Of a DNA stretch of 27,264 nucleotides, positions 1,207-21,806 are shown one piece after another (position 1 is the first letter of the stretch; each line of letters starts with the position of its first letter). The notes under the pieces are model-generated. The model did no database searches and had not been told where the DNA came from. It saw only the letters and a list, made by a program, of their open reading frames with translations. The DNA comes from a virus. The position numbers and the translations under genes were made by a program. Location: IMG/VR virus record IMGVR_UViG_3300030099_005775, positions 1 through 27,264 of that record; one strand, written 5' to 3'.

Positions 1207-2130
1207 TTACTTGTTACCATAAATTCTCATTCTCATTAGTTCTTTAAAGTTTACCTCGGTTGATGTGTTTAAGTGATGTATCATTTTTTTGTAACCTAAA
1301 TCACTTGGGTCTTTTCCTTGAAGTTTTACAAAATCAACTTTTATACCCATGTTTTGAAACTTCTCAATCATCTTCAAAGAGTCGTTAAAGGCATCATCAT
1401 CCAAAACGATGACGATATTTTTTACTCTCTTTTCAACGATTTTTTTCTCAAGTTTAGGAAGTATAGTTTTTCCGAAAAGTGGAATCGTATTGTTCTTGAT
1501 GGCCATTGCATCAAACACACCTTCACAAAGGATAATCGGTTCACCCCAATCTACATATAGGTCAAAACCGATAATGTCCTTTGGTATAGGTGGATTTTTG
1601 TATTTCATGGTAGATTTATAAAAGTCTCTACCTACAAAGTAATTCAATATACCATCTGAATCATAACTTGGTATAATGATACGATTCTGATATACTCCAT
1701 TCAAACAATAATGTAGATTATATCGTAATATATCACTCATGTCTAATCCTCTTTTATATAAGAAGTTTAGTGCATGTTGTTTCTGAAGTGAATCACCACC
1801 ATTCCATAATGGTTTTGCTTCCTTTGGAAGATTCAATGTGATTTGTTTATCTTGTTTTTTATCTGATGTGTAATATGTACCACCAATACTATCACTTAAT
1901 TCTTTAAATAATTCTCTTGGTGCACCCACCTGTTTTAACAATTGGAATAAGTTGTGACCACCTTGATTACTTACCCAACAATGCCATTTACCTGTTTGTA
2001 CATTTACTTGTAACTTAGGTTTGTGATGTGTAATAAATGGACTCCACCACATATACTCATTTGATTTCTTAAGGGATTGACCTTTTGATTTCAATGCCTT
2101 ATCTAAAATATTAATTACTAATTGACTCAT
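1207..2130 (-). CDS. DnaG-type DNA primase with degenerate zinc ribbon
   Basis: 307 residues. The N-terminal part has the layout of a CHC2 zinc ribbon (WWSPF around 28-32, H35, GKWHCW at 47-52, NQGGHNLFQLL at 55-65), but only C51 and H35 of the expected Cys/His ligands remain; S30 and S54 sit where cysteines are normal. The C-terminal half is a TOPRIM fold: LCEGVFDAMA (201-210, E203 and D207), IVLDDDAFN (241-249) and GKDPSDLG (272-279). It would make RNA primers for lagging-strand synthesis, as T4 gp61 does with the gp41 helicase. The start overlaps the upstream stop by 4 bases (ATGA), so translation is probably coupled. The recombination nuclease follows directly downstream, which fits a replication/recombination operon. 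Confidence 0.85.
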   Translation of the reverse strand: MSQLVINILDKALKSKGQSLKKSNEYMWWSPFITHHKPKLQVNVQTGKWHCWVSNQGGHNLFQLLKQVGAPRELFKELSDSIGGTYYTSDKKQDKQITLNLPKEAKPLWNGGDSLQKQHALNFLYKRGLDMSDILRYNLHYCLNGVYQNRIIIPSYDSDGILNYFVGRDFYKSTMKYKNPPIPKDIIGFDLYVDWGEPIILCEGVFDAMAIKNNTIPLFGKTILPKLEKKIVEKRVKNIVIVLDDDAFNDSLKMIEKFQNMGIKVDFVKLQGKDPSDLGYKKMIHHLNTSTEVNFKELMRMRIYGNK

Positions 2131-3410
2131 GGTTTTGGTAAATGGTGTAGTGTTGTTATTATTGTATTGTCTAAATAATAGTTATCATAACCTTCAACTT
2201 CTAATCCATAGAAAGTTTGTCTTTCATTATGTATCTCTACATTAGTTATTGGATTATCTAATAATGAGTCACCGACTCTTACTTCTGTTGTTTTAATAAA
2301 TTGGAACATATTATCTCTATTAATATATATAAACTCAATTGGTGAAAACATAAAATTATTTATCTCAACCCAAGTATCAAAATCATATTTGTGGATATTA
2401 TTAATGGTTGAGTATATAATTGAATCATGATGTTCTTTAGACTGATAGGAAACCCATGGATTATTCGTATCAACTATCGTATCATCATTAACTTTATTTA
2501 ATTCAAATGGGTCTGCAGGTATTGGATAATGATGACCTTTCACTATATTACTAACTCTTACCTTATCACCTATTTTTAAATCTCGTATTGGTGTACCTTC
2601 AATCAAAGTATCACCACCAACTTGTGCCCATACACCACTTCTATTGAATGTAGAGTTTTCAAATTCCATCTCAAACATATTATCTAACTTTGGATTCTTA
2701 TCCACATAAGTTGGATTACCCTTTAGATTAATCATCTCTGAATATCCATATTGTGATGATTCTGGTCGTAATGGAATCAATCCTATATTATCCAATAAAT
2801 ACAAACACTTCATAACAATTGGATTCCCATACTCATCAGTTCGTGGTTTAATATATTGTTCACGATAATCACTATCATCATATTTACATTCAGGCATATA
2901 ATGATATTCGTTTGTCGTTTTTAACCAATCTCTAAATAAATTTTTATATCTTGATATGGTGATTAATCCTTCACCATGTTTTGTCGTAGGTAAATTCTTA
3001 ATATAATAAGTGTTATCATCTTGTTCAAAATTTTCTCTTGATTTACGAAAAATTACTTGACATTGTGGTAATTCTTTATTAAGTTTAGATATAAATTGTG
3101 GTTCTGGATTAAAACCATTATCCTCTTCTCTTATAACCAAACAAACCTTTTCATATCCCTTTACATCAATATGTGTTTTTAATCTATTGAAATCAAATCC
3201 ACCTGAACCATACACCATTAAATCAGTAAGTGCGAGGTCTGTGTTTATTTCTAATAAATAAGGTTCATTATCCTCTGATAGAATGTAATCAAAAGTTATT
3301 AGTTCTCCCTCATTAATCTTATTATCTTTGAAATACTCACTAATGAAGAGTTTACTACCAACCTTTAGTGATTTAATATGTGCCTTTGTTAAGATATGGG
3401 AACTTAACAT
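2127..3410 (-). CDS. Unknown protein with C-terminal degenerate Hint domain and ATP-grasp-like motif
   Basis: 427 residues. The N-terminal 65 residues resemble the last part of an ATP-grasp fold (ITFDYILSEDNEPYLLEINT, about 38-57, with the metal-binding ExN pattern), but the rest of that fold is absent, so this is a weak call. The middle is unrecognised. From about residue 263 the sequence follows the Hint (intein/hedgehog) pattern: GGDTLIEGTPIRDLKIGD, a block-B-like FMFSPIEFIYI, EVRVGDSLLD, and a final strand GYDNYYLDNTIITT. Q263 replaces the nucleophilic Cys, S replaces the block-B His, and the terminal His-Asn is missing, so autoprocessing looks impossible. The start lies 38 bases inside the sulfotransferase gene. 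It is supported by AGGGAGA just upstream and by an in-frame stop at 3426-3428. Its stop overlaps the primase start. Confidence 0.75.
   Translation of the reverse strand: MLSSHILTKAHIKSLKVGSKLFISEYFKDNKINEGELITFDYILSEDNEPYLLEINTDLALTDLMVYGSGGFDFNRLKTHIDVKGYEKVCLVIREEDNGFNPEPQFISKLNKELPQCQVIFRKSRENFEQDDNTYYIKNLPTTKHGEGLITISRYKNLFRDWLKTTNEYHYMPECKYDDSDYREQYIKPRTDEYGNPIVMKCLYLLDNIGLIPLRPESSQYGYSEMINLKGNPTYVDKNPKLDNMFEMEFENSTFNRSGVWAQVGGDTLIEGTPIRDLKIGDKVRVSNIVKGHHYPIPADPFELNKVNDDTIVDTNNPWVSYQSKEHHDSIIYSTINNIHKYDFDTWVEINNFMFSPIEFIYINRDNMFQFIKTTEVRVGDSLLDNPITNVEIHNERQTFYGLEVEGYDNYYLDNTIITTLHHLPKP
2130..2624 (-). other. Degenerate Hint (intein-like) domain region
   Basis: This covers residues 263-427 of the protein at 2127-3410. 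The Hint strands are readable (DTLIEGTPIRDLKIGD, FSPIEF, VRVGDSLLD, NYYLDNTII). The three positions that carry splicing chemistry, Cys1, the block-B His and the terminal His-Asn, are Gln, Ser and Thr-Thr. The fold therefore seems retained without catalysis. Confidence 0.65.
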
Positions 3411-4885: not shown

Positions 4886-4987
4886 TTACCACTTTATATG
4901 TTGTTTGTCTTCTACTGCATATCCTATTAAAAAAACTAAACCCATAGTTAAAGGAATCAATATAATGAGTCCCAAGAGTGTTTTCAT
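4886..4987 (-). CDS. 33-residue single-pass membrane protein
   Basis: The product begins MKTLLGLIILIPLTMGLVFL and ends VEDKQHIKW. The hydrophobic helix spans about residues 4-23, with one Lys in front and a charged tail. The ATG overlaps the stop of the PAP2 gene as ATGA, and the next gene begins 1 base after its stop. This tight junction on both sides is the main evidence that it is a gene. The function is unknown; small phage inner-membrane proteins of this type can act as holins, antiholins or superinfection-exclusion factors. Confidence 0.6.
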   Translation of the reverse strand: MKTLLGLIILIPLTMGLVFLIGYAVEDKQHIKW

Positions 4988-5607
4988 TTCTTCATACCTC
5001 TGAATAAAACTTTTGCAATCTTTCTACCATATTCTCTGTCACTTGGGTAATGTGCTTTTGCAATAATTCTTGATTCAGCGATATCATCTCCCTTACCAAT
5101 ATATTCTTCACCATTGGTTGGGTCTTTGTGTGCAAGATACTCTCCGATTAAATAACCTTGGACTGCATGACCACTTGGATAACTTGGTGTTTTCATACTA
5201 TCAAGTGTAGTCCCATTTAAATCTATATCGTAGAACTCAGCAATCTGATATGGTCTTGGTCTATTATAATGATATTTTAACTCCATAATAAACTTAACAC
5301 TTTCTTTTACTATTTTTTTAATATCTTTTCTACTGATATCTAAACTATTTTTTTCTATCAACTCCATAAATGATTCTACAACATCATCATTTGACTCTGC
5401 AAACTTTGGATTAGGTTTAACACCTGCAAGAAACTTAACTTCTTTCAATGTTAATGATGAGTCATTTTCAGGTGGTGTTACTTTTGGTAATACTAAATTT
5501 TCATCCCACAATTCTAATTTACGAGACATTCTTTTTTCGTCTTTAGGTCTAACACTTTCTGCATACACCATATTACGAAGTTCTAATAATTCTTTTAACT
5601 TAATCAT
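4984..5607 (-). CDS. PAP2-superfamily phosphatase
   Basis: 207 residues with all three PAP2 signatures: K111-x6-R118-P119 in KYHYNRPRP, YPSGHAVQGY (143-152, with PSGH at 144-147), and SR-x5-H-x3-D with S179, R180, H186 and D190 in the stretch ending HYPSD. The family removes phosphate from lipids or small organic phosphates through a phospho-His intermediate. No membrane helices or signal peptide are seen, so it looks like a soluble class-A-acid-phosphatase type. The first ten residues, MIKLKELLEL, closely match those of the upstream gene product and resemble a T4-style capsid-targeting peptide. The start overlaps the upstream stop by 4 bases (ATGA). Packaging into the capsid is inference. 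Confidence 0.85.
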   Translation of the reverse strand: MIKLKELLELRNMVYAESVRPKDEKRMSRKLELWDENLVLPKVTPPENDSSLTLKEVKFLAGVKPNPKFAESNDDVVESFMELIEKNSLDISRKDIKKIVKESVKFIMELKYHYNRPRPYQIAEFYDIDLNGTTLDSMKTPSYPSGHAVQGYLIGEYLAHKDPTNGEEYIGKGDDIAESRIIAKAHYPSDREYGRKIAKVLFRGMKK

Positions 5608-6486: not shown

Positions 6487-7239
6487 TCATCTCCAATCCC
6501 ATATTTTAAATGCGTTATAAGTAATCCCAAATCCAATAACAGGTTCTGTTAAACCTGTCACATTATCATAAGTAACACCTATAAAAGGCCCTACACTAAT
6601 TTGGTTTCGTGGTGGTTTAATCTTAAATGGATTACTTCTTCTACTATTTAACTTTAAACCATCAAATTGTTTTTCAGGTACGATTGCGTACCATTCACCT
6701 TTTACTTCACCTTGTTCTATAAAAGGTTCACCTTGTTTTAAACTACCATCAAATCCTAACTCGGTCTCTGAATCCACAATACTATCATTTACTATCGCGA
6801 CACCAGTTCTACCAAAGACTCTTAGGTAGTCATCTTGTCTACCAAATTCTTTTTCAAATGGAACTACTCCAGCACCACTTGAATGAGATTCTCTATTATC
6901 ATAAATAGAAACCTTTTTAGAAAGTCGTTCCTTAATAGTATCTAATTCTACTTGGAACTCATCCATTTTTTTCTTTAGATTTCTATTTTCAATACCACGA
7001 GTTTTATCATGGTCATGTAAATCTTTTAATAAATCATTATTTTGTTTTACCAAAATCTTAACAGAGTCCTGTAACTCTGTAATCATTACATCTTGTCGTT
7101 CAGAATCTTCTCTCAAAAAATTCATTTCTTCTTGAGCGTAATAATAACGAATCCCCACGATACATAAAATGAAAAGAATGTTTAGGAATCCACCTATCAC
7201 CCACTCTCTTCTTTTTTGTGGCCAATGTTTTAACAACAT
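6487..7239 (-). CDS. Membrane-anchored coiled-coil protein, spanin-like layout
   Basis: 250 residues. A basic N-terminus (KHWPQKRREW) is followed by one membrane helix at about 14-32. Residues 36-110 then form a long heptad-rich coiled coil (QDVMITELQDSVKILVKQNN and on). After a Ser/Gly linker, the C-terminal end has short amphipathic strands (ISVGPFIGVTYDNVTG, VIGFGITYNAFKIW) like a small beta domain that could contact the outer membrane. The inner-membrane anchor plus periplasmic coiled coil is the layout of Rz-type inner-membrane spanins, and small phage proteins of this shape are common in Bacteroidota phages. AGGAG lies 5 bases before the ATG. The lysis role is inference; a structural envelope tether is the alternative. 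Confidence 0.55.
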   Translation of the reverse strand: MLLKHWPQKRREWVIGGFLNILFILCIVGIRYYYAQEEMNFLREDSERQDVMITELQDSVKILVKQNNDLLKDLHDHDKTRGIENRNLKKKMDEFQVELDTIKERLSKKVSIYDNRESHSSGAGVVPFEKEFGRQDDYLRVFGRTGVAIVNDSIVDSETELGFDGSLKQGEPFIEQGEVKGEWYAIVPEKQFDGLKLNSRRSNPFKIKPPRNQISVGPFIGVTYDNVTGLTEPVIGFGITYNAFKIWDWR

Positions 7240-7247
7240 ATGAACTC

Positions 7248-7766
7248 CTATTCTATATTTTGAAGTGCATCCTCAATGGCCTTTTTCAAAGAACCACCTA
7301 ACTCACTCTTACCGAACTCCACATCCTCTTGAATTTGTAAACCTGCAGCAGATACTTGTGTTGTTGTTTCACCAATTCCACGATAACTTCTTTGTACACC
7401 TTCTTTGTTTTGTACTAAGTTTAAAAGTAATCTAACTTCAGTTTTTTGATTTCTACGATTGAACAGACCTGCAATACTAAATGCTTCATTTGGTTTACCG
7501 ATATAAAGTATTTCTACATTCGCAGTATAATCAGCATTATCATCTTCAGTCAATCTATATCGTGTATCTTGAAATTGTTCCTCAAGTAATTGTTTGATAC
7601 CCATAGTAACTCTCTCATCAATCACACCAATCGTTTCATCAACTTTAACAAATTGTGATATTCTTAATGTAGGAAATTCTACATCTTTACCAACAACTGC
7701 TGGTTGTGGTAAGGATTGTGAATATCCAAATCCTATCAATAATAACATCATAATTAGTTTCTTCAT
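7248..7766 (-). CDS. Secreted CsgG/LpoB-fold-like periplasmic protein
   Basis: 172 residues with a signal peptide (MKKLIMMLLLIGFGYS, then Gln). The mature part alternates strands and helices in the order seen in CsgG-type proteins: ERVTMGIKQLLEEQF helix, YTANVEILYIGKP strand, VRLLLNLVQNKEG strand, YRGIGETTTQ strand, and a last helix GGSLKKAIEDALQNI. No lipobox is seen, so it is probably soluble in the periplasm. The larger CsgG-like lipoprotein and an outer-membrane barrel are encoded just upstream, which suggests the three work together. The fold call comes from pattern similarity only. AGGAGA lies 5 bases before the ATG. Confidence 0.5.
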   Translation of the reverse strand: MKKLIMMLLLIGFGYSQSLPQPAVVGKDVEFPTLRISQFVKVDETIGVIDERVTMGIKQLLEEQFQDTRYRLTEDDNADYTANVEILYIGKPNEAFSIAGLFNRRNQKTEVRLLLNLVQNKEGVQRSYRGIGETTTQVSAAGLQIQEDVEFGKSELGGSLKKAIEDALQNIE

Positions 7767-7775
7767 TTTCTTCTC

Positions 7776-8762
7776 CTAAAAGTATGTTCCAAACATTATG
7801 GCATATGTTATTGTTCTTTCACCATAATCGTTCACAACCGTATTGTATCCCATACTGAATCCTAAGTTTACTTTAAATGCCTGACTCAATTGAAAATCAA
7901 AAGAAAGTGTAGGCATAAGTATAATAGGACTCTTCAATAATAAATATTGTTTTCCTGAATTTAATCCTTTATAATATCTTAATAATGTATATGAAACATA
8001 GTTTGTAAGTGTTACTTTACCAAATGGTGTTTCTAATGGCATTCTATTACCATACAATACTGATAGATTACCAAATGCATTTTTACTAACATTTCCATAT
8101 GCAGTTGTTAAAACAATTACTTCAGAATTTCTCTTTACAAGTGATTTTGCATATGAACCTGATAATAACCAATCAGTTCCCTCAAATGTTCTAAAGAAAA
8201 CACCTGAACCACTTATCACTTGATTTTGTTTCTTTGCAAGAAAGTTTATTCCTTGACCATACGATGCATTAAATCTACTGAAGTCATCTGTAAAACTAAA
8301 GTTACCATCGTATCTACTTTTACCATCAAAACTTTCTCTTGTATAAATACTATTAAAAGATGTTACCCAACTACTATCTACGGTTGGTGATGTTTTGATA
8401 CCATAATTAACTTGTCCAACATCATTACTTACATCTTGTTTTGTAAATTGTTCTGTTGCGTTACTTGCCAATACTGATGAAAGTATTTCTTCTGCCACTC
8501 TAACTGCACAAGGAAACAAATCTTCAAAATCATTATAGACTTTTTGAGTCCAATTTTCTAATGTTCCATCTACTATTTGGTCAAAGGTAAAAAATTTAGA
8601 TTTGTTATAATAAGTAACATAAAATCCACCATCCATTGGTTGAAGATTATAATTATCCCTAACGATGGTTTGATTACATGGGTCAATATAACTATAAAGA
8701 AAACCTTGTGCAGAGAGTGCACTAATAGATAATATTAAATATAATACAACTCTCTGCCACAT
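7776..8762 (-). CDS. Outer-membrane beta-barrel protein
   Basis: 328 residues. A signal peptide (about 1-18, ending ISALSA before Gln) is followed by a globular segment with two Cys (PCNQ near 28 and PCAV near 87). From about residue 120 there is a long run of alternating strands rich in Tyr, Phe and Ser (NYGIKTS, SWVTSFNSIYTRE, VSYTLLRYYKG, FKVNLGFSMGYN). The last residue is Phe in YAIMFGTYF, the C-terminal aromatic signature used by the BAM machinery. It lies between two CsgG-fold-like genes, so a joint outer-membrane channel or export device is possible. I cannot name the family. Confidence 0.65.
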   Translation of the reverse strand: MWQRVVLYLILSISALSAQGFLYSYIDPCNQTIVRDNYNLQPMDGGFYVTYYNKSKFFTFDQIVDGTLENWTQKVYNDFEDLFPCAVRVAEEILSSVLASNATEQFTKQDVSNDVGQVNYGIKTSPTVDSSWVTSFNSIYTRESFDGKSRYDGNFSFTDDFSRFNASYGQGINFLAKKQNQVISGSGVFFRTFEGTDWLLSGSYAKSLVKRNSEVIVLTTAYGNVSKNAFGNLSVLYGNRMPLETPFGKVTLTNYVSYTLLRYYKGLNSGKQYLLLKSPIILMPTLSFDFQLSQAFKVNLGFSMGYNTVVNDYGERTITYAIMFGTYF

Positions 8763-8767
8763 TCATA

Positions 8768-9430
8768 CTACCAACCTCTACGGTCAATCGCTTTGATTAC
8801 ATTCACAACCGCAGTTTCCATAGCCTTGTTAGACGCAGAACTTAAAGAACTCTGATTCCATTCCATATTAGGATTCTTTAAAAATCCTTGTCCTATGGTG
8901 GATGCTCTTCCTTGTCCACTACCAACTACATACTGAGTATTCTCATTATTGATTACTTTAACTTGGATACCAACAATAGTTTCGTTTATTGTTTGAACTT
9001 TACCAGCTTTGATATCTTCTTTCAAGTTAACAGCAAAATCATAAATAGTTACATATGCAGTGTATTTGGTTTTTTCTATTTTTGCTTCGTTGGCTTTTAA
9101 ATCATTAATTATAGATAATTGTACATCTCTATCTCCCTCTACGAGATTGAATCTACCAATAAAAGAAATCACATTCGCAAGTTCTTGGTTTAACCCAAAT
9201 GCAACCCTTTTATCACCAAGTTCTGGATATCTTTCTTCAAGTTCTTTATTGAACTTAACATCCAAAATCTTTAGATTATCTACTTTAGTGATTTCTACTT
9301 CATCTAATGATTTTTGTTTTTCGTACTCACCAACATATTGTTCGGTTGATACTGATGCGGCACACCCCATAAATTGTACACCTACACTAAACAAAAACAC
9401 AACAACAAGTAGTTTCCAAAATTTACTCAT
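8768..9430 (-). CDS. CsgG-like lipoprotein
   Basis: 220 residues. The N-terminus is a lipoprotein signal (hydrophobic 7-22, then FMGCAAS with C23 as lipid anchor). The rest follows the CsgG pattern: a nucleotide-binding-like alpha/beta core, GRFNLVEGDRDVQL (114-127 region), strand YTAYVTIYDFAV, VGIQVKVINNENTQYVVGSG, and the C-terminal helix AMETAVVNVIKAIDRRGW. CsgG makes the nine-fold outer-membrane pore for curli secretion and is about 277 residues in E. coli; this one is shorter, so one or both membrane hairpins may be reduced. No curlin-type repeats are seen nearby, so its cargo is unknown. GGAGA lies upstream of the ATG. It is followed by the barrel protein and a second CsgG-like gene. 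Confidence 0.65.
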   Translation of the reverse strand: MSKFWKLLVVVFLFSVGVQFMGCAASVSTEQYVGEYEKQKSLDEVEITKVDNLKILDVKFNKELEERYPELGDKRVAFGLNQELANVISFIGRFNLVEGDRDVQLSIINDLKANEAKIEKTKYTAYVTIYDFAVNLKEDIKAGKVQTINETIVGIQVKVINNENTQYVVGSGQGRASTIGQGFLKNPNMEWNQSSLSSASNKAMETAVVNVIKAIDRRGW

Positions 9431-9439
9431 TATTATCTC

Positions 9440-9820
9440 CTATTTGAAATCTGCTAATGGGTCTTTTAATAGTTTTTCTAAACGAGTTATTTCATCTTGT
9501 AGATTATTAATCTCATTTTCTAACCTAACTATATCTCCATCATAAGATTTTACTTTTGGTGTTTTTAAACCATCTACTTTTTCTCGTAGATATTTAAAAT
9601 CTTCATCATATTTCTCAAATTTTTCTGCTACCATTTCTACATCAGATGCATCAGCAAATCCTAAAACTACTTCTTCTAATGAATCAATACGACCTGTAAA
9701 GGTATACCAACCAGCGATAACGGTAGAAAGAAAAGTAACAATAGCAATAATATTGTTAATTGATACTTTGAATCCTTTTGATTTAACTTCTTCAATAGCT
9801 TGTTCTATATCTTTTGCCAT
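9440..9820 (-). CDS. Single-pass membrane protein with C-terminal coiled coil
   Basis: 126 residues from ATG at 9820, chosen because AAGGAG lies 7 bases upstream; an in-frame ATG at 9850 would overlap the zinc-ribbon gene and lacks a site. A helix of mixed charge (2-18) leads into one membrane segment (about 21-41, IIAIVTFLSTVIAGWYTF). Residues 45-122 are acidic, heptad-rich coiled coil (IVRLENEINNLQDEITRLEK). A similar membrane-plus-coiled-coil layout is common near phage lysis genes and could be a holin or a spanin partner of the protein at 6487-7239. The function is inferred from shape only. Confidence 0.55.
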   Translation of the reverse strand: MAKDIEQAIEEVKSKGFKVSINNIIAIVTFLSTVIAGWYTFTGRIDSLEEVVLGFADASDVEMVAEKFEKYDEDFKYLREKVDGLKTPKVKSYDGDIVRLENEINNLQDEITRLEKLLKDPLADFK

Positions 9821-9827
9821 TTTATTT

Positions 9828-9833
9828 CTCCTT
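9828..9833 (-). promoter_or_regulatory. Ribosome binding site fixing the start at 9820
   Basis: AAGGAG on the minus strand lies 7 bases before ATG at 9820 and overlaps the stop of the zinc-ribbon gene. It rules against the longer start at 9850. Confidence 0.7.
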
Positions 9834-9942
9834 AATATCGTAGTATCCAAATACTACTACATTTTACACATCTTGATAGAAAACTAACATACTCAGTCCA
9901 TTTGGTTCTTTTCCAAGTGTGTTTACATTTTAAACATTTCAT
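9832..9942 (-). CDS. 36-residue zinc-ribbon-like protein
   Basis: The product has two CxxC knuckles: MKCLKCKHTW at the start (C3, C6) and RCVKCSS (C25, C28), spaced like a minimal treble-clef or rubredoxin-type zinc ribbon. Between them are basic and aromatic residues (KRTKWTEYVSF). The reading frame is complete, starts 4 bases after the Cys-rich micro-ORF and ends at the ribosome site of the next gene. Such mini zinc proteins often bind nucleic acid or another protein. The function is unknown. Confidence 0.6.
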   Translation of the reverse strand: MKCLKCKHTWKRTKWTEYVSFLSRCVKCSSIWILRY

Positions 9943-13926: not shown

Positions 13927-14922
13927 TTAGACATCAAACCTTATAACGAATGTAGTGTCCAATTCATCACTTAGTTTAATTGGATGGGCTAACTTACCTA
14001 CAACAAGTAAGTTATCTTTATCGTCATATAGTCCTATCGTTGAGACATATGGATAAAAATCTGAACTTGTCACGAATGACAATTGAGTATCGGTAGCATT
14101 GTAAAATGTATTAAAACTACCTGTTCCTTCACCACTTGGATTATCACCTGGTGGGAAAAATAAGTCTGGTCTTTGGGTTTTACTATCTAATGTTATACTA
14201 CCACTATAACCTTTAGTTATACTAACATTCATACTTGTGTTAAAATTGTTAGCAGGAATCATAACTTCGTATAAATATTCATAATGTCTATGTGTTGCCT
14301 TATACTTTATATCATATCCTGTACCGAATCCAACATCACCATATGAACCTGTGTTATTAATAACTGCAATACCATGTTCATAAAATATATTACCAACTTG
14401 TGAACCACTATTATTAGATAATACACCTTGACCTAATGTAAAAGAACTTGATTTATATGCAGAGAAACTTGATGAGAAGGCAAAGTCATAGAGATTACCA
14501 TCACCATCATCTCTTATATCAAATGTTGTACCTCTTGAAGTATCACTTAATTCAAATGTACCAGGTTTAATTCTTTCTCCAAATAAATCTTTTGGAATAC
14601 TAAATACAGAGGCACTTGTGTGAAGTTCTCTTTTTGTACTTGTGGTGTTTGAATTTCCAAACACACCTATAGGATTAGATGCGTCTTTATAATACATTTT
14701 ATTAATTGTATGCCATGTTGGTAAGGCGTAATAATTTGTAGTTATGGAACCTGATGTGATTGTTGTTATGATATCAGAACCAGAATCATAATTGTAAAGT
14801 GATTTTGAAACTGCTCTTACGGCAAACAATCCACTCCCACTATCGTTATGAGTGAGAGTAAATGTTTTGTTAGTTTCAAATCTTTTGATGGAAACATTTT
14901 TTCTATCAATGTCTCTAAACAT
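13927..14922 (-). CDS. Tail/fibre-type structural protein, paralogue of the next upstream gene
   Basis: 331 residues, Ser/Thr/Gly-rich and mainly beta by pattern, with no signal peptide. The C-terminal 45 residues (VSTIGLYDDKDNLLVVGKLA, then PIKLSDELDTTFVIRFDV) align with the end of the neighbouring 344-residue protein (TQVGLYNDNNDLLAVAKVSK, then PLLKSYSREAIIKVKLDF), so the two share a domain and probably arose by duplication. The N-terminus opens MFRDIDRKNVSIKRFETNKT. AGGA lies before the ATG. The order (after the wedge and collar-type genes, before the envelope module) suggests a distal baseplate or tail-fibre component. The receptor-binding role is inference. Confidence 0.6.
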   Translation of the reverse strand: MFRDIDRKNVSIKRFETNKTFTLTHNDSGSGLFAVRAVSKSLYNYDSGSDIITTITSGSITTNYYALPTWHTINKMYYKDASNPIGVFGNSNTTSTKRELHTSASVFSIPKDLFGERIKPGTFELSDTSRGTTFDIRDDGDGNLYDFAFSSSFSAYKSSSFTLGQGVLSNNSGSQVGNIFYEHGIAVINNTGSYGDVGFGTGYDIKYKATHRHYEYLYEVMIPANNFNTSMNVSITKGYSGSITLDSKTQRPDLFFPPGDNPSGEGTGSFNTFYNATDTQLSFVTSSDFYPYVSTIGLYDDKDNLLVVGKLAHPIKLSDELDTTFVIRFDV

Positions 14923-14931
14923 TAGATTATC

Positions 14932-15966
14932 CTAAAAGTCAAGTTTTACTTTGATAATAGCTTCTCTTGAATAAGATTTCAATAGTGGTTTACTAACTTT
15001 TGCTACTGCCAATAAGTCATTGTTATCATTATAAAGACCAACTTGTGTAATAAAAGTCTTAGGGTCTCTTACAAATGTTTGTTGTGTTAAGTCACCATTT
15101 GTATCTGAGAAAGTAGGATTATTACTAAAGTTAAATCTTTGGTTATTAACTCTACAGAAGAAGTTAGTAGAACTAATCTCTTCCTCTCTACGAACTTGAA
15201 AGTAAGAACCTGTTGCAACTGATAGGAAGAAGTTATGTGGATTACCATCAAATGTATCTGTACTTCTTGTAGTTTTAAGTCCACCATTAAGTGCTAATGT
15301 ATGTGGATGTAATAATATAATTCCTAAGTCAGGATAGAATAATCCATATGCACCACCTGTTTCAGATGCTGCCGCAGTTTCTGTTACTGCGGTTCCTGTA
15401 CTTATTGAACCACTAACAACATTAAACACCCTACCTGCTTCATTTACGGTTGGGTTTGTTGTAGCACCACTATCATCAATCAACTTGATTGTTGATGTAT
15501 TACCACTACCACTTAAATGTAGTTCCCAATTACCTGGGTCAATCTTTTCTCTTTGTCGTGCTCTTTGGAAAGATATAAAATAAAAATCATTACTACCTGT
15601 TGTGGTGTTTGCAAATGTAAATTTTGTAGTTAATGATGGTAGGATAACATTAGCAAATTGTCTATAAAGTGCTGCAGTTTGTCTTCCACCACTATTTAAT
15701 TTAGTTGTATTACCAGCCGAACCACTACCTTCTCTGTGTGCATATCCTAATGAGAATTGTATCTCTGCAGTGTCTGCAGTTGCAACTCCTGATGTTGGGT
15801 CTTGATGATACACATCAATATATGAACCTGTTGATGCACCTTGTGCTGACTGACTAAAGAACGATGTTAATGTTCCACTTCCACCAGTAAACACACCACT
15901 TGAAACAACGGTTCTCTGATTTTTTACTACATCATTATCTTCATCAAATCTTTGAAATACTGACAT
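14932..15966 (-). CDS. Tail/fibre-type structural protein
   Basis: 344 residues, beginning MSVFQRFDEDNDVVKNQRTV. The N-terminal part is rich in Gly, Ser and Thr (GVFTGGSGTLTSFFSQSAQG); the middle has NFYFISFQRAR-like strand patterns and basic residues (QRARQREKIDPGNWELHLSG). The C-terminal domain is shared with the downstream 331-residue protein. GGGAGA lies about 7 bases before the ATG. No known family name can be given with certainty; similar short proteins with the GLYnDnnxLLAVaK ending lie after baseplate genes in marine T4-like phages as I remember them. A structural role is likely and a receptor role possible. Confidence 0.6.
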   Translation of the reverse strand: MSVFQRFDEDNDVVKNQRTVVSSGVFTGGSGTLTSFFSQSAQGASTGSYIDVYHQDPTSGVATADTAEIQFSLGYAHREGSGSAGNTTKLNSGGRQTAALYRQFANVILPSLTTKFTFANTTTGSNDFYFISFQRARQREKIDPGNWELHLSGSGNTSTIKLIDDSGATTNPTVNEAGRVFNVVSGSISTGTAVTETAAASETGGAYGLFYPDLGIILLHPHTLALNGGLKTTRSTDTFDGNPHNFFLSVATGSYFQVRREEEISSTNFFCRVNNQRFNFSNNPTFSDTNGDLTQQTFVRDPKTFITQVGLYNDNNDLLAVAKVSKPLLKSYSREAIIKVKLDF

Positions 15967-15979
15967 TACTTAATCTCCC

Positions 15980-16621
15980 TTAATTCGTTGATGTGTTCGC
16001 AGATACTTCAACTGATATATTTGATACAACACCAGTTCCAAGACCTTGAATTGTTAAATTTGTTGTGATTGCAGAATTTAAACTCTTACCAATCAGTTTT
16101 GCAGATTTTGCATTTATAGTTACTGATTTAGTTGAATCTAATGGTGCAGTAAAGTTTACGGTTTGACCAGTATCTGGTTCTGTACCTGCTACTTCAACTT
16201 CAAGAGTCGCTGCATCACTATTGTGTAATGTAAACCTATATCCTACTTGGTCATCCAAGGTAGAATTATCTGTAGATGGTGATATGATTGCAATCCCACC
16301 TGCATTTAAAGGTACTGGTGAAGTTGCACCAATCTGTATCTTAGGCATCTTTGTTGTGTTTTTATTCAAAGTAATAAGTTTGTATCTCATTACTTGATTC
16401 TCATCTACAAATGATTCTAATAGAGGCATGTTTTCAATCACTGCTCCATAATAAGATGAACCATTTGGATGTGTTACATCCCAAAGATTGTAATCAATCT
16501 CATCATCTGCCAATGCAAATTTTGTTATTTGAAACTCGTTCTGTCCTCTTGCCAATAATTCACGACCTTTTTTTGTCAAGACGGCATCTACGGTTATACT
16601 TGTGTTATCTAAAAATCCCAT
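15980..16621 (-). CDS. Tail-collar/baseplate-associated structural protein
   Basis: 213 residues. The start MGFLDNTSITVDAVLTKKGR, then ELLARGQNEFQITKFALADD, follows the pattern of tail-collar fibre N-terminal domains (xLTxxGRxLLA...ITxFALxDDEIDY), which attach fibres to the baseplate. The second half (about 110-213) has an Ig-like strand pattern (YRFTLHNSDAATLEVEVAG, VTINAKSAKL), possibly a surface-exposed beta sandwich. AGGAG lies 7-10 bases before the ATG. It is the first gene after the 1704-residue wedge protein and a 70-base gap holding a stem-loop. The attachment role is inferred from the N-terminal pattern and gene order. Confidence 0.6.
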   Translation of the reverse strand: MGFLDNTSITVDAVLTKKGRELLARGQNEFQITKFALADDEIDYNLWDVTHPNGSSYYGAVIENMPLLESFVDENQVMRYKLITLNKNTTKMPKIQIGATSPVPLNAGGIAIISPSTDNSTLDDQVGYRFTLHNSDAATLEVEVAGTEPDTGQTVNFTAPLDSTKSVTINAKSAKLIGKSLNSAITTNLTIQGLGTGVVSNISVEVSANTSTN

Positions 16622-16644
16622 TATTTTACTCCTGTATGAATAGA

Positions 16645-16675
16645 TATAACTTTACTATAGATAAATAGTGTTATA
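16645..16675 (-). promoter_or_regulatory. Stem-loop in the gap before the collar-type gene
   Basis: On the plus strand: TATAAC-TTT-ACTAT-AGATAA-ATAGT-GTTATA. Eleven base pairs form around a 6-base loop with a 3-base bulge. It lies 16-46 bases after the wedge-gene stop and just before the collar-type ribosome site. No T run follows on the minus strand, so an RNA-processing or mRNA-stability element is as likely as a terminator. Confidence 0.5.
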
Positions 16676-16691
16676 CCTAATTTTTCTTACA

Positions 16692-19600
16692 TTAATTTAC
16701 TTTAAGTTTAGAATCTCCTGGTTCTTTTGTTATCAATTGTGTTGGTGTTGTTGTGGTTGTTTCAACTGGTTCTCCACCATCAATAGTATTTGATTGTGCA
16801 GTCAATTGAGAACTACCGATAGTCACACTACCAATAAATGGTGATTTACTTGATGTAGGATGACTTGTTTGTCCATCGTCTCTTGTTACAGAACCACCAA
16901 TAAATGACCTAAATAATCTTGAATCATAATAAACACTTTGGTGTTCACTTGGTACAAATGAAGAACTATAATGTAGTCCTCTTGATGCACTCAAACTTGA
17001 TGAATAAAAGAATACTTTTTCTTGATTATGTTCTGATAATCTTGAACCTGTAATTACTGGTTGTAATACTTCACCAAAGGTTACACCTTCTCCACCAAAT
17101 GTTACACTTGCAGTTGCATAATTGTAAGAGTGTGGTGTTTTTGGGTCTATAACACCCAACTTAACTAATGTAGGTTCACCTAATGCACCGAGTGAACCAC
17201 TATTATCATGGAATACTCCATTTAATTCACTTTCATGATATCGTGTTTCACCACCTATATCAAAATATGCATCATCTTTTGAACCACTAATAAATCTTGT
17301 TACTGGTACACCATCTTCAAACTCACTGGCGTTTTCAAAGAAACGATTATTAAATGAAGGTCTATCACCAATTACTTGTTTACTTCTTTCTAATATATTT
17401 GGTTCAACTAATATACCTGTTGTGGCTTTACTTCTCATAGGAACCCAATTCTTTAATTGTGTGAATACACTTGGGTCGTAAAATGTAAGTATCCTTAAAT
17501 AGTCAAAAAAGTTATTTGGTGCTGAATACTTTTGCCAATACTCAGTTCTTAATTTTTGTAAACCTCTATAGTTTTGTTTGTATTGGTCTCTTGGGTCTCC
17601 AATAAAATCATCAAAATTAAAATCTGCAATACTATACATTATATCTTCATTTATCACATCAACTGGTGAAAAATAAATACCTACCTTTTCACTATCAATC
17701 GGTGCAAAATCTTGTGATGATTTTTCTTTTCTTTCAGATGGTGATAAATTACCTGTTAATGATGAGTCTTCAATTCTTACTTTAGTTGCATTTCTTCTTG
17801 AAGGGCCAATATTTGGAACTCTTAATTGTTCTTTATCAACTAAACTTCTAAATGTATTTGTTGTGAACCCACTTGAAGAACCAGTTATATCATTGTAGTT
17901 TGAACCATTAGAAACATTATTAACATGAGTTGTAGATGATAAATCAAAATTATTGTCTAATGTATATCTCACCAATAAATCATGATAAGAAGAACTATAT
18001 GAATTACCATTATATGACTTTGGTGCTCTTACATGATTATCAAATACACTTTGACTTAATGGTTCTGACCATAAACGATATTCCATTAATGAACCACTAA
18101 ACCTTGAACCAAAGTTTGTATTTTGTCCACCAAGATAAACATACTTTGTTCCAACACTACCTGTAAATGCAGCATTGATTGCACTACTACTCGCGTGTCC
18201 TTGTCCTGTTGTTAAACTTGAACTTGTTTGAAACTTAACTTTTTCTCTTGTTGAGTCATATTGTTTTGTAGTTAATTCATACTTTACATTTCTTGATATT
18301 AAATCATCTGTCATCTGTACACCACTCGCACTGACTCTTGTTAACATCACACTCCACATTTCGTCATTATAAAATGGTTGTAGTGATGAAGTTATACCAT
18401 ATACACCTGTTGAGGCACTAACACTAAATTTTAAATGTCCATAATTATCAGTCGTTCCATTATCTTTTAAATGTATTGCCCAATCATTTTCTTTTTGTGC
18501 AATCACCATACTACCAGAACTACCAACACTATGTGGTGTTCTAAATCTAAACTCTAATGTTTGTGGATACTGACTATCATTATTATCTGTTGTCCATATA
18601 CTTTTAATATTTTGTGACCCATGAAAATCTAATGCATATGTAAACTTTCTTTTCACTTCATAACTTACTCGTTCTTGATTATCTGGCCCACCATATTCTC
18701 TTACTCTTAATATTGAACTTGGAATACCATAACAATTCAATATACCTTTTAAACATCTAACACTACCTTTTGCCTTTATAAAGAAAGGAATATTATTTAG
18801 TAGTCGTTTCCATATTTCTTCTGTTACTTGTTCTTGTGGTATTTCGTATTTAGTAGAACCATCAGGATTTTTACCTTCAAGATATTCTGGTAAAATTAAT
18901 AAATCATTTCCATTTGTAAGTTCTAATCCAAGAGATTTTGCAAACTCTGCTGCAATATCTTTTGAAATACCCTCTGATATATTTGGTGATAAATCATTTA
19001 CATCAGTAAGATGTTTTGTATATGTCCATATCTCGTCAAATTGTTGTGCAGTCATATCCATAAATTCTATGAATGTATTATTCATAGTATCATCTTTTAC
19101 ATGCATAGGTATATTATTAACAAACCTATTGTTGTTTATTGTATCATATGTAGATGAAGATAATATCATGTTATCAAACCAAGTACTCACTTCAGAACCA
19201 GTTGAGTGGTAAAGAGTGTATGGTTTTGATGAATTTGTTTTAGGCCACGAGTTATCGTGATATTGTCCTGCAGATGAACTTACATAAGATGAACTTTCAA
19301 AATACATATAATGTTCAAATGGGTCAAATGAATTAACGACTCTTTGTCTTTTATTTTCGTTATCTTGAATATCACTTAATGAACCAGTCAAACTAACTAA
19401 TGATTGACTTGTCTCACTATAAGTTTCAATTAACTCTACTTTCTTTTTGAAGTTTCTAATTCTTCTTTCTGCACTTGAGTAATGTACAAAATTACCAAAT
19501 CCTATATCATCAGTTTCTAAATTTAAATCAACTGATGTTCTGTTAAATTCTGTATTGACTTGAACATCTAACAAACTACCACTTACTAATTTTCTCTCAA

Positions 19601-21806
19601 TGTCTCTATTCAATGCATCATTACTTCCTAATAATGTATTGTGTGATTCATATCTCGTTGACCTAAAGTTTATAGGATTATCAACTGAATTTAAATTAGG
19701 TAATTGTAAAAACAATCCATCTGGTTCTTCATCAATAAATGGTATTAATCTTATTACTTCAACATGAGATGGTAGTCTTTTCTCTACAAAATATACTTTA
19801 TCTAATTCTTGTTTTTCACCAGTCAATGGTTGTTTTAATTTAAATACTCTTTTTTCATTTTGAGAATCAAAAAACTCTTTGTTTTCATTTGTGATTAAAT
19901 AATAATCATTATCACAAACCATGTAGGTTTTAAATCTTTCTATATTGTTTTTCTCATATAAAACATTCCAACCATAATAGTCTGAATCTCTACCACTCGG
20001 GCCGTCATGTCCAACATTATCTGCAGCCTGTTGGTATGTTAAACTTACTTTTACTCTATTGTAATCAAGTACTTCTGTAATTGTCGCAACATAATCAAAA
20101 TGAAATGTCTCGTCTTCAAATCGTGTAACCCAACTTTCAACAATCTCAGTTGTGAAATCTTGTGTTCCTTCAGGTACTGGTGTATTTAGAATAAAATCTT
20201 CAAAAGGAGCTATCTCTGCATGTCCTAACATTTCTTGATTTATATCATCTACAATAACTTCATTTTGATATATGTTATTATTGTTTGCACCAAACATACC
20301 CCAACCATCACCACTCTCTATTAATCCACCTTGTGGTAAACCATTACCTGGTGTTATTGGGTCTGTACCCTCTTCACCTAAATCTGTATTACCTGTTGCA
20401 TCAAAATCAATGTATGCGGGTCTGGCAGAACCTTGTTTTTGTCCACGATATGGGTCAACATAACCACTTGCTGCTCTTTGTGCTGCCTGTTGTTTTGCTC
20501 TATCAGACACACCCATTCTAAATCTATTTCTGTCTTCAAGAAATCTTTCTTGCCAATGTTTAGTCTCAGTAGTCTTCCATTTACCAAGAGTCGCTGCAAC
20601 TATATTGTTTGCAAAAATTGTATGGTCTTTATCTAATACTAAGTTCCACACTTTAAAAGGTGGTTTTTGATAATATACTTTACCAATCTCTCTTGACATA
20701 AACCAACCATCTTTTGTTCTGATAGGATGGTGGTCGGTAACAATAAGGTTTTTATATTTAACCATCAAGTCACCAAAACCTCTTTCACTCTTTATGACTT
20801 TCTTAACTCTTGCAACACCCTTATCAGTTCTGACTTTCATACCAATCTTCATCATCTTGATTGGAACTTGTCTACCATTACTTAATGTTACTTTTGTATT
20901 AGGATGAAAACAAACTCCATCATAATCAAATTCCATTCCACCATCAAAATCATCATCTTCAGGTGGGTCATCTTGTGGTGGGTCTGGTTCAGGTGGTAAC
21001 TCATCATAAATTGGTGGAGGTGGTGGTGGTGGTATATCTGGTGGTACTTCTACAGGTACCTGTACTTCTGTTAATACTGATTCAAGATATTCCCTTGTGA
21101 TTGTTTTTTCAAATATTCTTGGTATTCTTATTTCTGCACCAACCATATTTTGTGTAAACCCTCTATCATCATCTTGTAGGTTTGCTACTAATACTCCTGG
21201 TTGATTCTCATCAAACTTAATAGAACCATTTGCTCCACTACCTGCAGTAAGAAATGGTTGATACTTCACTATAGTATTCATTTCTCTAAAGTTTCTATGA
21301 TATGTTTGGTTTTTAAAATCTTGTGTTTTAACTACGACTTCTGTTCTATCACAACTAATTTTATCAAGTGAATATTTTAAATCTCGTATAAATAATTCTT
21401 GTGGTGGATTATCTGTCATGGATTGTGCAGATGCATTTGGTGGTGGTGCAGTATAATATCTTATTTCTTCATTTATATTTCTTGTGATAACTTTACCTGC
21501 GTATAATTCGCCATCACCATTAACCATTACTAAATGGTCTCTACCTGCTAACTTTCTTAAAAATCTATATTGTACAATATACTCACCATCAGATAATCCA
21601 TTATCTCTTAAATGTTGTCCTATATTTAAATCTAAAAATCCAGTTGCATTGGTATCAGGATTAAATTTATCTGTAAGCACAAGTTCATCATTTTGGAAAA
21701 CTTCTAAGACAATATAGTCTCCACTATCTCTTCCAAAACTACTATACACCCTTTCAGGTTTATAATATTCTTCTCTCTCTTGATTATTAAATCCGTATTC
21801 TGCCAT
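16692..21806 (-). CDS. Giant baseplate wedge protein (gp7/tail-protein-I-like) with Hint and LamG-like domains
   Basis: 1704 residues. The N-terminal 240 residues are a beta-rich structural domain. A proline/acidic linker (about 249-297, with a run of seven Pro) leads to a Hint domain at 299-405 (C299 in GVCFHPNTKV, block B LIVTDHHPIRTKDGW, end HTIFANNIVAATL). Residues about 919-1039 match tail protein I / gp7-type wedge sequence (EEIWKRLLNNIPFFIKAKGS, then CLKGILNCYGIPSSILRV). Residues about 1050-1265 fit a LamG/concanavalin-like lectin fold (LEFRFRTPHS, YVYLGGQNTNFGSRFSGSL, MEYRLWSEPLSQ). The remainder is Ser-rich with many GS turns. Position after gp25 and gp6 is where the third wedge protein is expected. 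T4 gp7 has 1032 residues, so this is much larger. The wedge call rests on the 919-1039 region and order. Confidence 0.75.
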   Translation of the reverse strand: MAEYGFNNQEREEYYKPERVYSSFGRDSGDYIVLEVFQNDELVLTDKFNPDTNATGFLDLNIGQHLRDNGLSDGEYIVQYRFLRKLAGRDHLVMVNGDGELYAGKVITRNINEEIRYYTAPPPNASAQSMTDNPPQELFIRDLKYSLDKISCDRTEVVVKTQDFKNQTYHRNFREMNTIVKYQPFLTAGSGANGSIKFDENQPGVLVANLQDDDRGFTQNMVGAEIRIPRIFEKTITREYLESVLTEVQVPVEVPPDIPPPPPPPIYDELPPEPDPPQDDPPEDDDFDGGMEFDYDGVCFHPNTKVTLSNGRQVPIKMMKIGMKVRTDKGVARVKKVIKSERGFGDLMVKYKNLIVTDHHPIRTKDGWFMSREIGKVYYQKPPFKVWNLVLDKDHTIFANNIVAATLGKWKTTETKHWQERFLEDRNRFRMGVSDRAKQQAAQRAASGYVDPYRGQKQGSARPAYIDFDATGNTDLGEEGTDPITPGNGLPQGGLIESGDGWGMFGANNNNIYQNEVIVDDINQEMLGHAEIAPFEDFILNTPVPEGTQDFTTEIVESWVTRFEDETFHFDYVATITEVLDYNRVKVSLTYQQAADNVGHDGPSGRDSDYYGWNVLYEKNNIERFKTYMVCDNDYYLITNENKEFFDSQNEKRVFKLKQPLTGEKQELDKVYFVEKRLPSHVEVIRLIPFIDEEPDGLFLQLPNLNSVDNPINFRSTRYESHNTLLGSNDALNRDIERKLVSGSLLDVQVNTEFNRTSVDLNLETDDIGFGNFVHYSSAERRIRNFKKKVELIETYSETSQSLVSLTGSLSDIQDNENKRQRVVNSFDPFEHYMYFESSSYVSSSAGQYHDNSWPKTNSSKPYTLYHSTGSEVSTWFDNMILSSSTYDTINNNRFVNNIPMHVKDDTMNNTFIEFMDMTAQQFDEIWTYTKHLTDVNDLSPNISEGISKDIAAEFAKSLGLELTNGNDLLILPEYLEGKNPDGSTKYEIPQEQVTEEIWKRLLNNIPFFIKAKGSVRCLKGILNCYGIPSSILRVREYGGPDNQERVSYEVKRKFTYALDFHGSQNIKSIWTTDNNDSQYPQTLEFRFRTPHSVGSSGSMVIAQKENDWAIHLKDNGTTDNYGHLKFSVSASTGVYGITSSLQPFYNDEMWSVMLTRVSASGVQMTDDLISRNVKYELTTKQYDSTREKVKFQTSSSLTTGQGHASSSAINAAFTGSVGTKYVYLGGQNTNFGSRFSGSLMEYRLWSEPLSQSVFDNHVRAPKSYNGNSYSSSYHDLLVRYTLDNNFDLSSTTHVNNVSNGSNYNDITGSSSGFTTNTFRSLVDKEQLRVPNIGPSRRNATKVRIEDSSLTGNLSPSERKEKSSQDFAPIDSEKVGIYFSPVDVINEDIMYSIADFNFDDFIGDPRDQYKQNYRGLQKLRTEYWQKYSAPNNFFDYLRILTFYDPSVFTQLKNWVPMRSKATTGILVEPNILERSKQVIGDRPSFNNRFFENASEFEDGVPVTRFISGSKDDAYFDIGGETRYHESELNGVFHDNSGSLGALGEPTLVKLGVIDPKTPHSYNYATASVTFGGEGVTFGEVLQPVITGSRLSEHNQEKVFFYSSSLSASRGLHYSSSFVPSEHQSVYYDSRLFRSFIGGSVTRDDGQTSHPTSSKSPFIGSVTIGSSQLTAQSNTIDGGEPVETTTTTPTQLITKEPGDSKLKVN
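20592..20912 (-). other. Hint (intein-like) domain inside the wedge protein
   Basis: This covers residues 299-405. The N-terminal Cys (C299) and the block-B TxxH (TDHH) are present, so an N-S acyl shift is chemically possible. The C-terminal His-Asn needed for splicing is replaced: the line NNIVAATL has Ala-Thr where inteins have His-Asn. There is no room for a homing endonuclease. It resembles bacterial intein-like (BIL) or hedgehog-type Hint domains, which cleave or ligate instead of splicing. Confidence 0.75.

Follow-up and report, generated by a model that had tools for sequence, protein, structure and literature searches.

The window analyzed here, a 27,264-nt (27 kb) fragment of an uncultivated virus held as an IMG/VR record, carries all of its main genes on the minus strand. 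Genes that look by eye like baseplate and tail genes are followed downstream by a series of seven genes, which runs from a cargo protein of the type IX secretion system (T9SS) to a coiled-coil protein (Table 1). A preliminary description of this DNA had singled out three of the seven, i.e., a CsgG-like lipoprotein (CL1), a barrel, and a second CsgG-like protein (CL2), as tightly spaced genes. All three are real minus-strand ORFs, with 5 bases between CL1 and the barrel and 9 bases between the barrel and CL2, and gaps of 5 to 9 bases are found throughout from the small membrane protein to the coiled-coil gene.

Table 1. Genes of the seven-gene series in the window.
Feature	Position	Strand	Features and evidence
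T9SS cargo, 959 aa	10957..13836	-	signal peptide (by eye), cohesin, C-terminal type A sorting domain
PorV/PorQ-family outer-membrane protein, putative T9SS shuttle, 289 aa	9984..10853	-	NF033709, 6h3i_F
Small inner-membrane-type protein	9440..9850	-	one apparent TM helix and coiled coil
CL1, CsgG-like lipoprotein, 220 aa	8768..9430	-	signal peptide, lipobox ...FMGC; paralogue of CL2
Putative outer-membrane beta-barrel, 328 aa	7776..8762	-	signal peptide, beta-type sequence, C-terminal GTYF
CL2, second CsgG-superfold protein, secreted, 172 aa	7248..7766	-	signal peptide, AlphaFold2, Foldseek, VIA
Membrane-anchored coiled-coil protein, conserved C-terminal domain	6487..7239	-	spanin-like at best

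The small protein probably starts at an internal ATG; it matched no family above that family's cut-off and gave matches of coiled-coil type only. For the coiled-coil protein at the end of the series, matches to Rz-like spanins in PHROG were weak (E 0.013-0.032). Elsewhere in the window, apparent Hint-type (intein/hedgehog-like) stretches are visible by eye in ORF 2127-3410 and in about the first quarter of ORF 16692-21806, which encodes a very large tail-type protein. ORF 4984-5607 shows a PAP2-like phosphatase motif pattern (RPRP...PSGHA), and such an ORF lies near the module in many relatives.

The first protein of the series combines a cohesin domain (PF00963, E 2.3e-5, 25.1 bits against a cut-off of 24.1) with a T9SS type A sorting domain that lies barely above the curated NCBIfam cut-off (TIGR04183, 23.7 against 23 bits) and below that of Pfam (PF18962, 16.9 against 27 bits). 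Together with a signal peptide recognized by eye, the sorting domain above a curated cut-off marks the protein as type A cargo. Among its relatives at E <= 0.01, the cohesin domain was found in 14 of 15 and PF18962 in 10 of 15, and TIGR04183 exceeded its cut-off in all nine phage records searched. A dockerin-like calcium-loop stretch (GDVDGDD...LNDAYFLW) was noticed in the window protein by eye only.

PorV is the cargo shuttle of the T9SS, and the gene that follows the cargo gene encodes a protein of the PorV/PorQ family. Its match to NF033709 is nearly full length (E 3.5e-22) and, at 79.4 bits, below the cut-off of 90; a PorV-like profile finds the PorV chain of the solved SprA complex (6h3i_F) at E 3.1e-9, mainly over about 67 C-terminal residues. 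Searches of phage collections with the PorV-like and the 959 aa proteins gave no match. All type A cargo is recognized by PorV according to PMC12618676. The preliminary description had overlooked both of these genes, whose presence as neighbors changes the meaning of finding CsgG-like genes at this locus.

For CL2, an AlphaFold2 model of fair quality (pLDDT 70, pTM 0.61) was compared with known structures. Foldseek returned Cj1090c, which we take to be LptE-like, at E 5e-7, PelC at 2e-5, and CsgG at 2e-4, and VIA gave Z scores of 11.7, 10.8, and 10.9 for the same three proteins. The comparison with CsgG (6lqh_A) extends over 124 residues at 3.0 A and covers the alpha/beta core of the fold. As regards the two transmembrane hairpins that each subunit contributes to the CsgG ring, the CL2 segments between strands 80-90 and 106-119 and after strand 124-137 are about 15-17 residues long in the model. 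FlgT, LptE, and TraT were also among the structure matches, the last with a VIA Z of 8.8, and the TraT family profile (PF05818) matched 4 of 25 CL2 members weakly (best E 0.018). Because the matches span PelC, LptE-like proteins, FlgT, TraT, and CsgG, the model gives good support for placing CL2 in the broad CsgG/PelC/LptE/TraT superfold of outer-membrane accessory proteins, rather than with CsgG in particular.

The evidence for CL1 is of a different kind. Its AlphaFold2 model is poor (pLDDT 50), and structure searches gave weak matches only, with a best Z of 5.2 and 4.8 to CsgG. When profiles of the mature domains were compared (50 CL1 and 46 CL2 sequences), however, the two proteins matched with a probability of 98.6% (E 7e-16) and a score of 98, against a maximum of 23 over 60 column shuffles. 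By this profile comparison CL1 and CL2 are paralogues. Assignment of CL1 to the CsgG superfold is thus indirect, by way of its paralogy with CL2 and of a distant homologue that passes the CsgG family profile PF03783. The latter, encoded in one of ten related records (G412), does so barely (21.0 bits against a cut-off of 20.8). CL1 is also the most conserved protein of the set, with a mean column identity of 83% over 27 sequences and an invariant lipobox cysteine.

The preliminary description had named PF03783 as the profile by which its CsgG-like proteins could be recognized. That profile was passed by none of the 27 CL1 and none of the 25 CL2 members of the window clade, and by no protein in the whole window. 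Profile-profile comparison (hhalign) with 11 Bacteroidota CsgG sequences scored 36.5 for CL1 (best of 60 shuffles 20.4) at a probability of only 49%, and 31.8 for CL2 (best of 60 shuffles 21.5) at only 28%; with an earlier, narrow CL1 alignment the result was noise (20.6, shuffle maximum 23.6). Searches of PDB sequence profiles with CL1, CL2, and the barrel yielded no useful match. The proposed CsgG fold stands for CL2, given its pTM of 0.61 and Z of 10.9 to CsgG, and is carried over to CL1 by the indirect route described above, its own model being poor.

The protein encoded between the two is a putative outer-membrane beta-barrel, as suggested by its signal peptide, beta-type sequence, and C-terminal phenylalanine (GTYF in the window protein). 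Its N-terminal domain contains two invariant cysteines, C29 and C85, and DPC and PC motifs of the protein are likewise invariant. Profile comparison of the barrel alignment revealed no relation to CsgG, CL1, or CL2.

CL1 brought in 38 loci of the window clade, and in all 27 that had enough flanking sequence the seven genes occur in the same order on one strand; ten loci (L039-L048), most on contigs already represented, were excluded from this count. The alignments comprised the window sequence plus 26 of 26 distinct CL1, 24 of 25 CL2, 26 of 27 barrel, 22 of 25 coiled-coil, 25 of 27 PorV-like, and 14 of 17 cargo sequences, those left out being close to others by listing. The CL1 search also reached the cultured Flavobacterium phage immuto (29% identity, E 2e-23), a 160 kb phage of Flavobacterium sp. 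LMO8. Here, gp015 combines a cohesin domain with a clear T9SS sorting domain (44.8 bits) and the genes after it encode a small membrane protein, CL1, a homologue of the barrel, and CL2; no PorV-like gene was found.

A search of IMG/VR with immuto CL1 gave 113 matches, of which 80 were kept, on contigs of up to 308 kb. The order CL1-barrel-CL2 was present in all 66 testable loci of these 80. The small gene lay upstream in 68 of 77, as counted with a local HMM that, like those termed 'endolysin', 'lectin', and 'two-TM', was built from some of the loci it then counted. Among 22 groups of the surface protein encoded just upstream of CL1 in the immuto clade, TIGR04183 was detected in 21, cohesin in 20, and dockerin in 7, one group (L178) being represented by a 136 aa ORF only. 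When 13 whole records were searched for the PorV-like gene, it was found in the 3 of the window clade and in none of the 10 immuto-type records. Together, these loci delineate large phages of Bacteroidota-type bacteria that carry a conserved outer-membrane set beside a T9SS-tagged protein. In the immuto clade, C-type lectin proteins also adjoin the module (L193:11679-13373, L204:12619-13617, and L122:10527-11525).

Among cellular genomes of Bacteroidota, a single one of 390 yielded the barrel and CL2 genes, and two of 395 yielded CL1, one of these weakly (E 0.0013). The sole solid case is a metagenome-assembled genome (MAG), one contig of which bears the CL1-barrel-CL2 genes together with phage-type cargo neighbors and a PorV-like gene, likewise of the phage type. 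PorV-family genes, in contrast, occurred in 84 of 118 genomes, and PF03783 in 23 of 61. The CL1-barrel-CL2 set therefore looks phage-specific at the search sensitivity used, while relatives of the shuttle-like gene do occur in cells. Presumably the host bacterium has a T9SS; for immuto it is a Flavobacterium, and for the window clade the two MAG matches fall into conflicting bins (Flavobacteriales and Gammaproteobacteria).

For the role of such a module, export, lysis, or surface change had been suggested in advance. Surface change is now the best supported of these, given that a T9SS-tagged cohesin protein and a PorV-family protein are encoded in the same series, and an export channel is hypothetical. 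We give an even chance to the reading that the genes form a conserved, phage-encoded envelope module that acts in the infected cell and serves surface display through the host T9SS and an outer-membrane complex. As its sequence indicates, the phage would make a protein of cohesin/dockerin type that starts with a Sec signal peptide and ends in a T9SS type A domain; with these two signals, the host type IX system should carry the cargo to the surface. In the window clade, the PorV-family protein could act as a dedicated shuttle for a cargo whose sorting domain scores weakly, and immuto-type phages, in which no PorV was found, would use host PorV. CL1, the barrel, and CL2 may then form one outer-membrane complex analogous to PelBC and LptDE. 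Both CsgG-superfold proteins would sit on the periplasmic face of the barrel, like PelC relative to PelB and LptE relative to LptD, and the complex would assist in positioning or anchoring what is displayed. To judge from its position, the module would be expressed late. The least certain step is the benefit: the altered surface, produced along with the late genes, might exclude competing phages, or else keep progeny from re-adsorbing to dying cells or make cells adhesive.

In favor of display are the T9SS/cohesin pair upstream of CL1 in both clades, the adjoining PorV-family gene in the window clade, the fixed gene order, the Flavobacterium host of immuto, the lectins beside the module, the CsgG superfold of CL2 and its paralogy with CL1, and the rarity of the CL1-barrel-CL2 set in Bacteroidota genomes. 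Against it count the sorting domain of the window protein, which barely exceeds TIGR04183 and fails Pfam, the PorV-like score under the NF033709 cut-off, the failure to find such a gene in the 10 immuto-type records, the conflicting MAG bins, and the closeness of lysis genes in part of the immuto clade. These last genes make lysis the main rival, since endolysin, holin, and two-TM proteins are neighbors of the module. The CL1-barrel-CL2 complex, with holin- and spanin-like small membrane proteins, would open the outer membrane at lysis, and the surface protein would be a neighbor through late expression only. In 28 of the 63 immuto-type loci that could be tested, the 3 kb downstream of CL2 include an endolysin gene (phrog_181, E 2e-70), counted with an HMM built from five of these loci, and in one locus a holin (phrog_199, E 2e-5) lies beside it. 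Within the module or next to it, 6 of 23 groups have a two-TM protein, and 8 loci of the window clade have one downstream of the coiled-coil gene; the coiled-coil protein has the weak Rz-like matches noted above. However, the endolysin is not near CL2 in the other 35 of the 63 loci, none was recognized by eye or with the local HMM in an 83 kb relative, and the two-TM and small proteins have no clear match to a lysis family. Lysis also leaves the place of the T9SS cargo in the fixed order unexplained. We regard it as an unlikely account of the module. The two-TM protein itself (about 116 aa, EDWKEMLLILLGAFVGNLNKV motif; L193:9678-10040, L215:9704-10072, and L025:11206-11562) adjoins the module in both clades. 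It belongs to no clear family and is a candidate holin or complex partner, and its gene moves within the module, lying upstream of CL1 in one group (L190:8517-8876) and between CL1 and the barrel in others (L193:9678-10040).

That the exported proteins join the particle or serve tail attachment seems improbable. In the window clade, the cargo gene directly follows the tail-type genes at 13927-21806, but signal peptides, lipobox, and T9SS signal direct the proteins to the envelope, and in immuto the neighbors of the module are genes for nucleotide metabolism and nucleases instead of tail genes. Virion proteomics for immuto was not found in our search; neither 'immuto' nor 'FspM' occurs in a paper on Flavobacterium phages of the Baltic in which LMO8 is named. 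A curli-like export pore or amyloid system would be in keeping with the CsgG superfold and with marine phages for which CsgG and CsgF are in print (PMC7029224, PMC9599517, and PMC9004378). We consider it highly improbable, as neither a curlin repeat nor CsgF was found in any of the 11 records searched (NC_055915 complete, the others possibly incomplete), and PF03783 found no CL1 or CL2 member of the window clade. A curli system was accordingly rejected, and the earlier statement that the CsgG-fold proteins occur here without curlin holds for these records. Since CsgF and curlin were not found in them and a broad superfamily shares the fold, the genes are not the CsgG/CsgF curli genes of pelagiphages. 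We attach very little probability to a pore for solutes or some other envelope role that involves no display, which would suit the barrel-like middle gene and the habit of CsgG-superfold proteins to assist other barrels, but not the constant linkage of CL1-barrel-CL2 to T9SS cargo.

Within the display reading, a more specific version is tentative and, in our estimate, somewhat doubtful. The phages might extend the T9SS with their own cargo, their own PorV-type shuttle, and a phage-only complex, and so display a viral cohesin-dockerin scaffold. The complex would consist of the two paralogous CsgG-superfold proteins and the barrel, and lectins might be displayed as well in the larger phages.

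CsgG-like pores and T9SS cargo have each been described in phages and await an explanation, and the module joins both themes. The report on Cryophage describes phage-encoded proteins bearing type A sorting domains of the T9SS and suggests a hijack of the host system, possibly for superinfection exclusion (PMC7468147). Phage-encoded type A cargo is common to both cases, but Cryophage has three variable cargo genes (endoglucanase, GH39, and PA14), whereas the set found here is fixed and combines cohesin cargo with a barrel and two proteins of the CsgG superfold, to which one clade adds a PorV-family gene. Pelagiphages and Melnitz are marine phages that also have CsgG-superfold outer-membrane proteins of unsettled purpose; their reports, however, describe true CsgG with CsgF and, in one study, curlin repeats (PMC7029224, PMC9599517, and PMC9004378), in place of which our loci have two paralogues on either side of a putative barrel, together with T9SS cargo. 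Shuttle genes linked to cargo genes are also known from the dedicated pairs of Flavobacterium johnsoniae, which are bacterial and combine type B cargo with PorP/SprF-like shuttles (PMC12618676), in contrast to the type A-like cargo and PorV-family protein of a phage. Solved structures of PelB/PelC and LptD/LptE provide examples of a CsgG-superfold lipoprotein that works with a barrel; the module differs in having two paralogous partners, not one, and the likeness concerns the superfold partners, not the barrels or a polysaccharide or LPS role. TraT, a surface exclusion protein in the outer membrane that belongs to a mobile element and shares the CL2 superfold, acts against conjugation (PMC11733297), and PF05818 is weak in CL2. 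Among titles and abstract beginnings in the open-access literature, none that we found deals with PorV in a phage or with the present set of genes.

The fixed order of the module spans two distant phage clades, whose contigs reach 308 kb. Because one phage is in culture and its host can be grown, the reason why phages carry secretion-system parts becomes testable by gene removal in a single laboratory system. Two of the lectin proteins encoded beside the module also contain a Laminin_G_3 domain. In the 83 kb relative (L277, G397:20001-40000), inspection by eye revealed a long block of sugar-epimerase-like ORFs as well as ORFs with a repeated GCSFT-type start, which are perhaps surface glycan genes.
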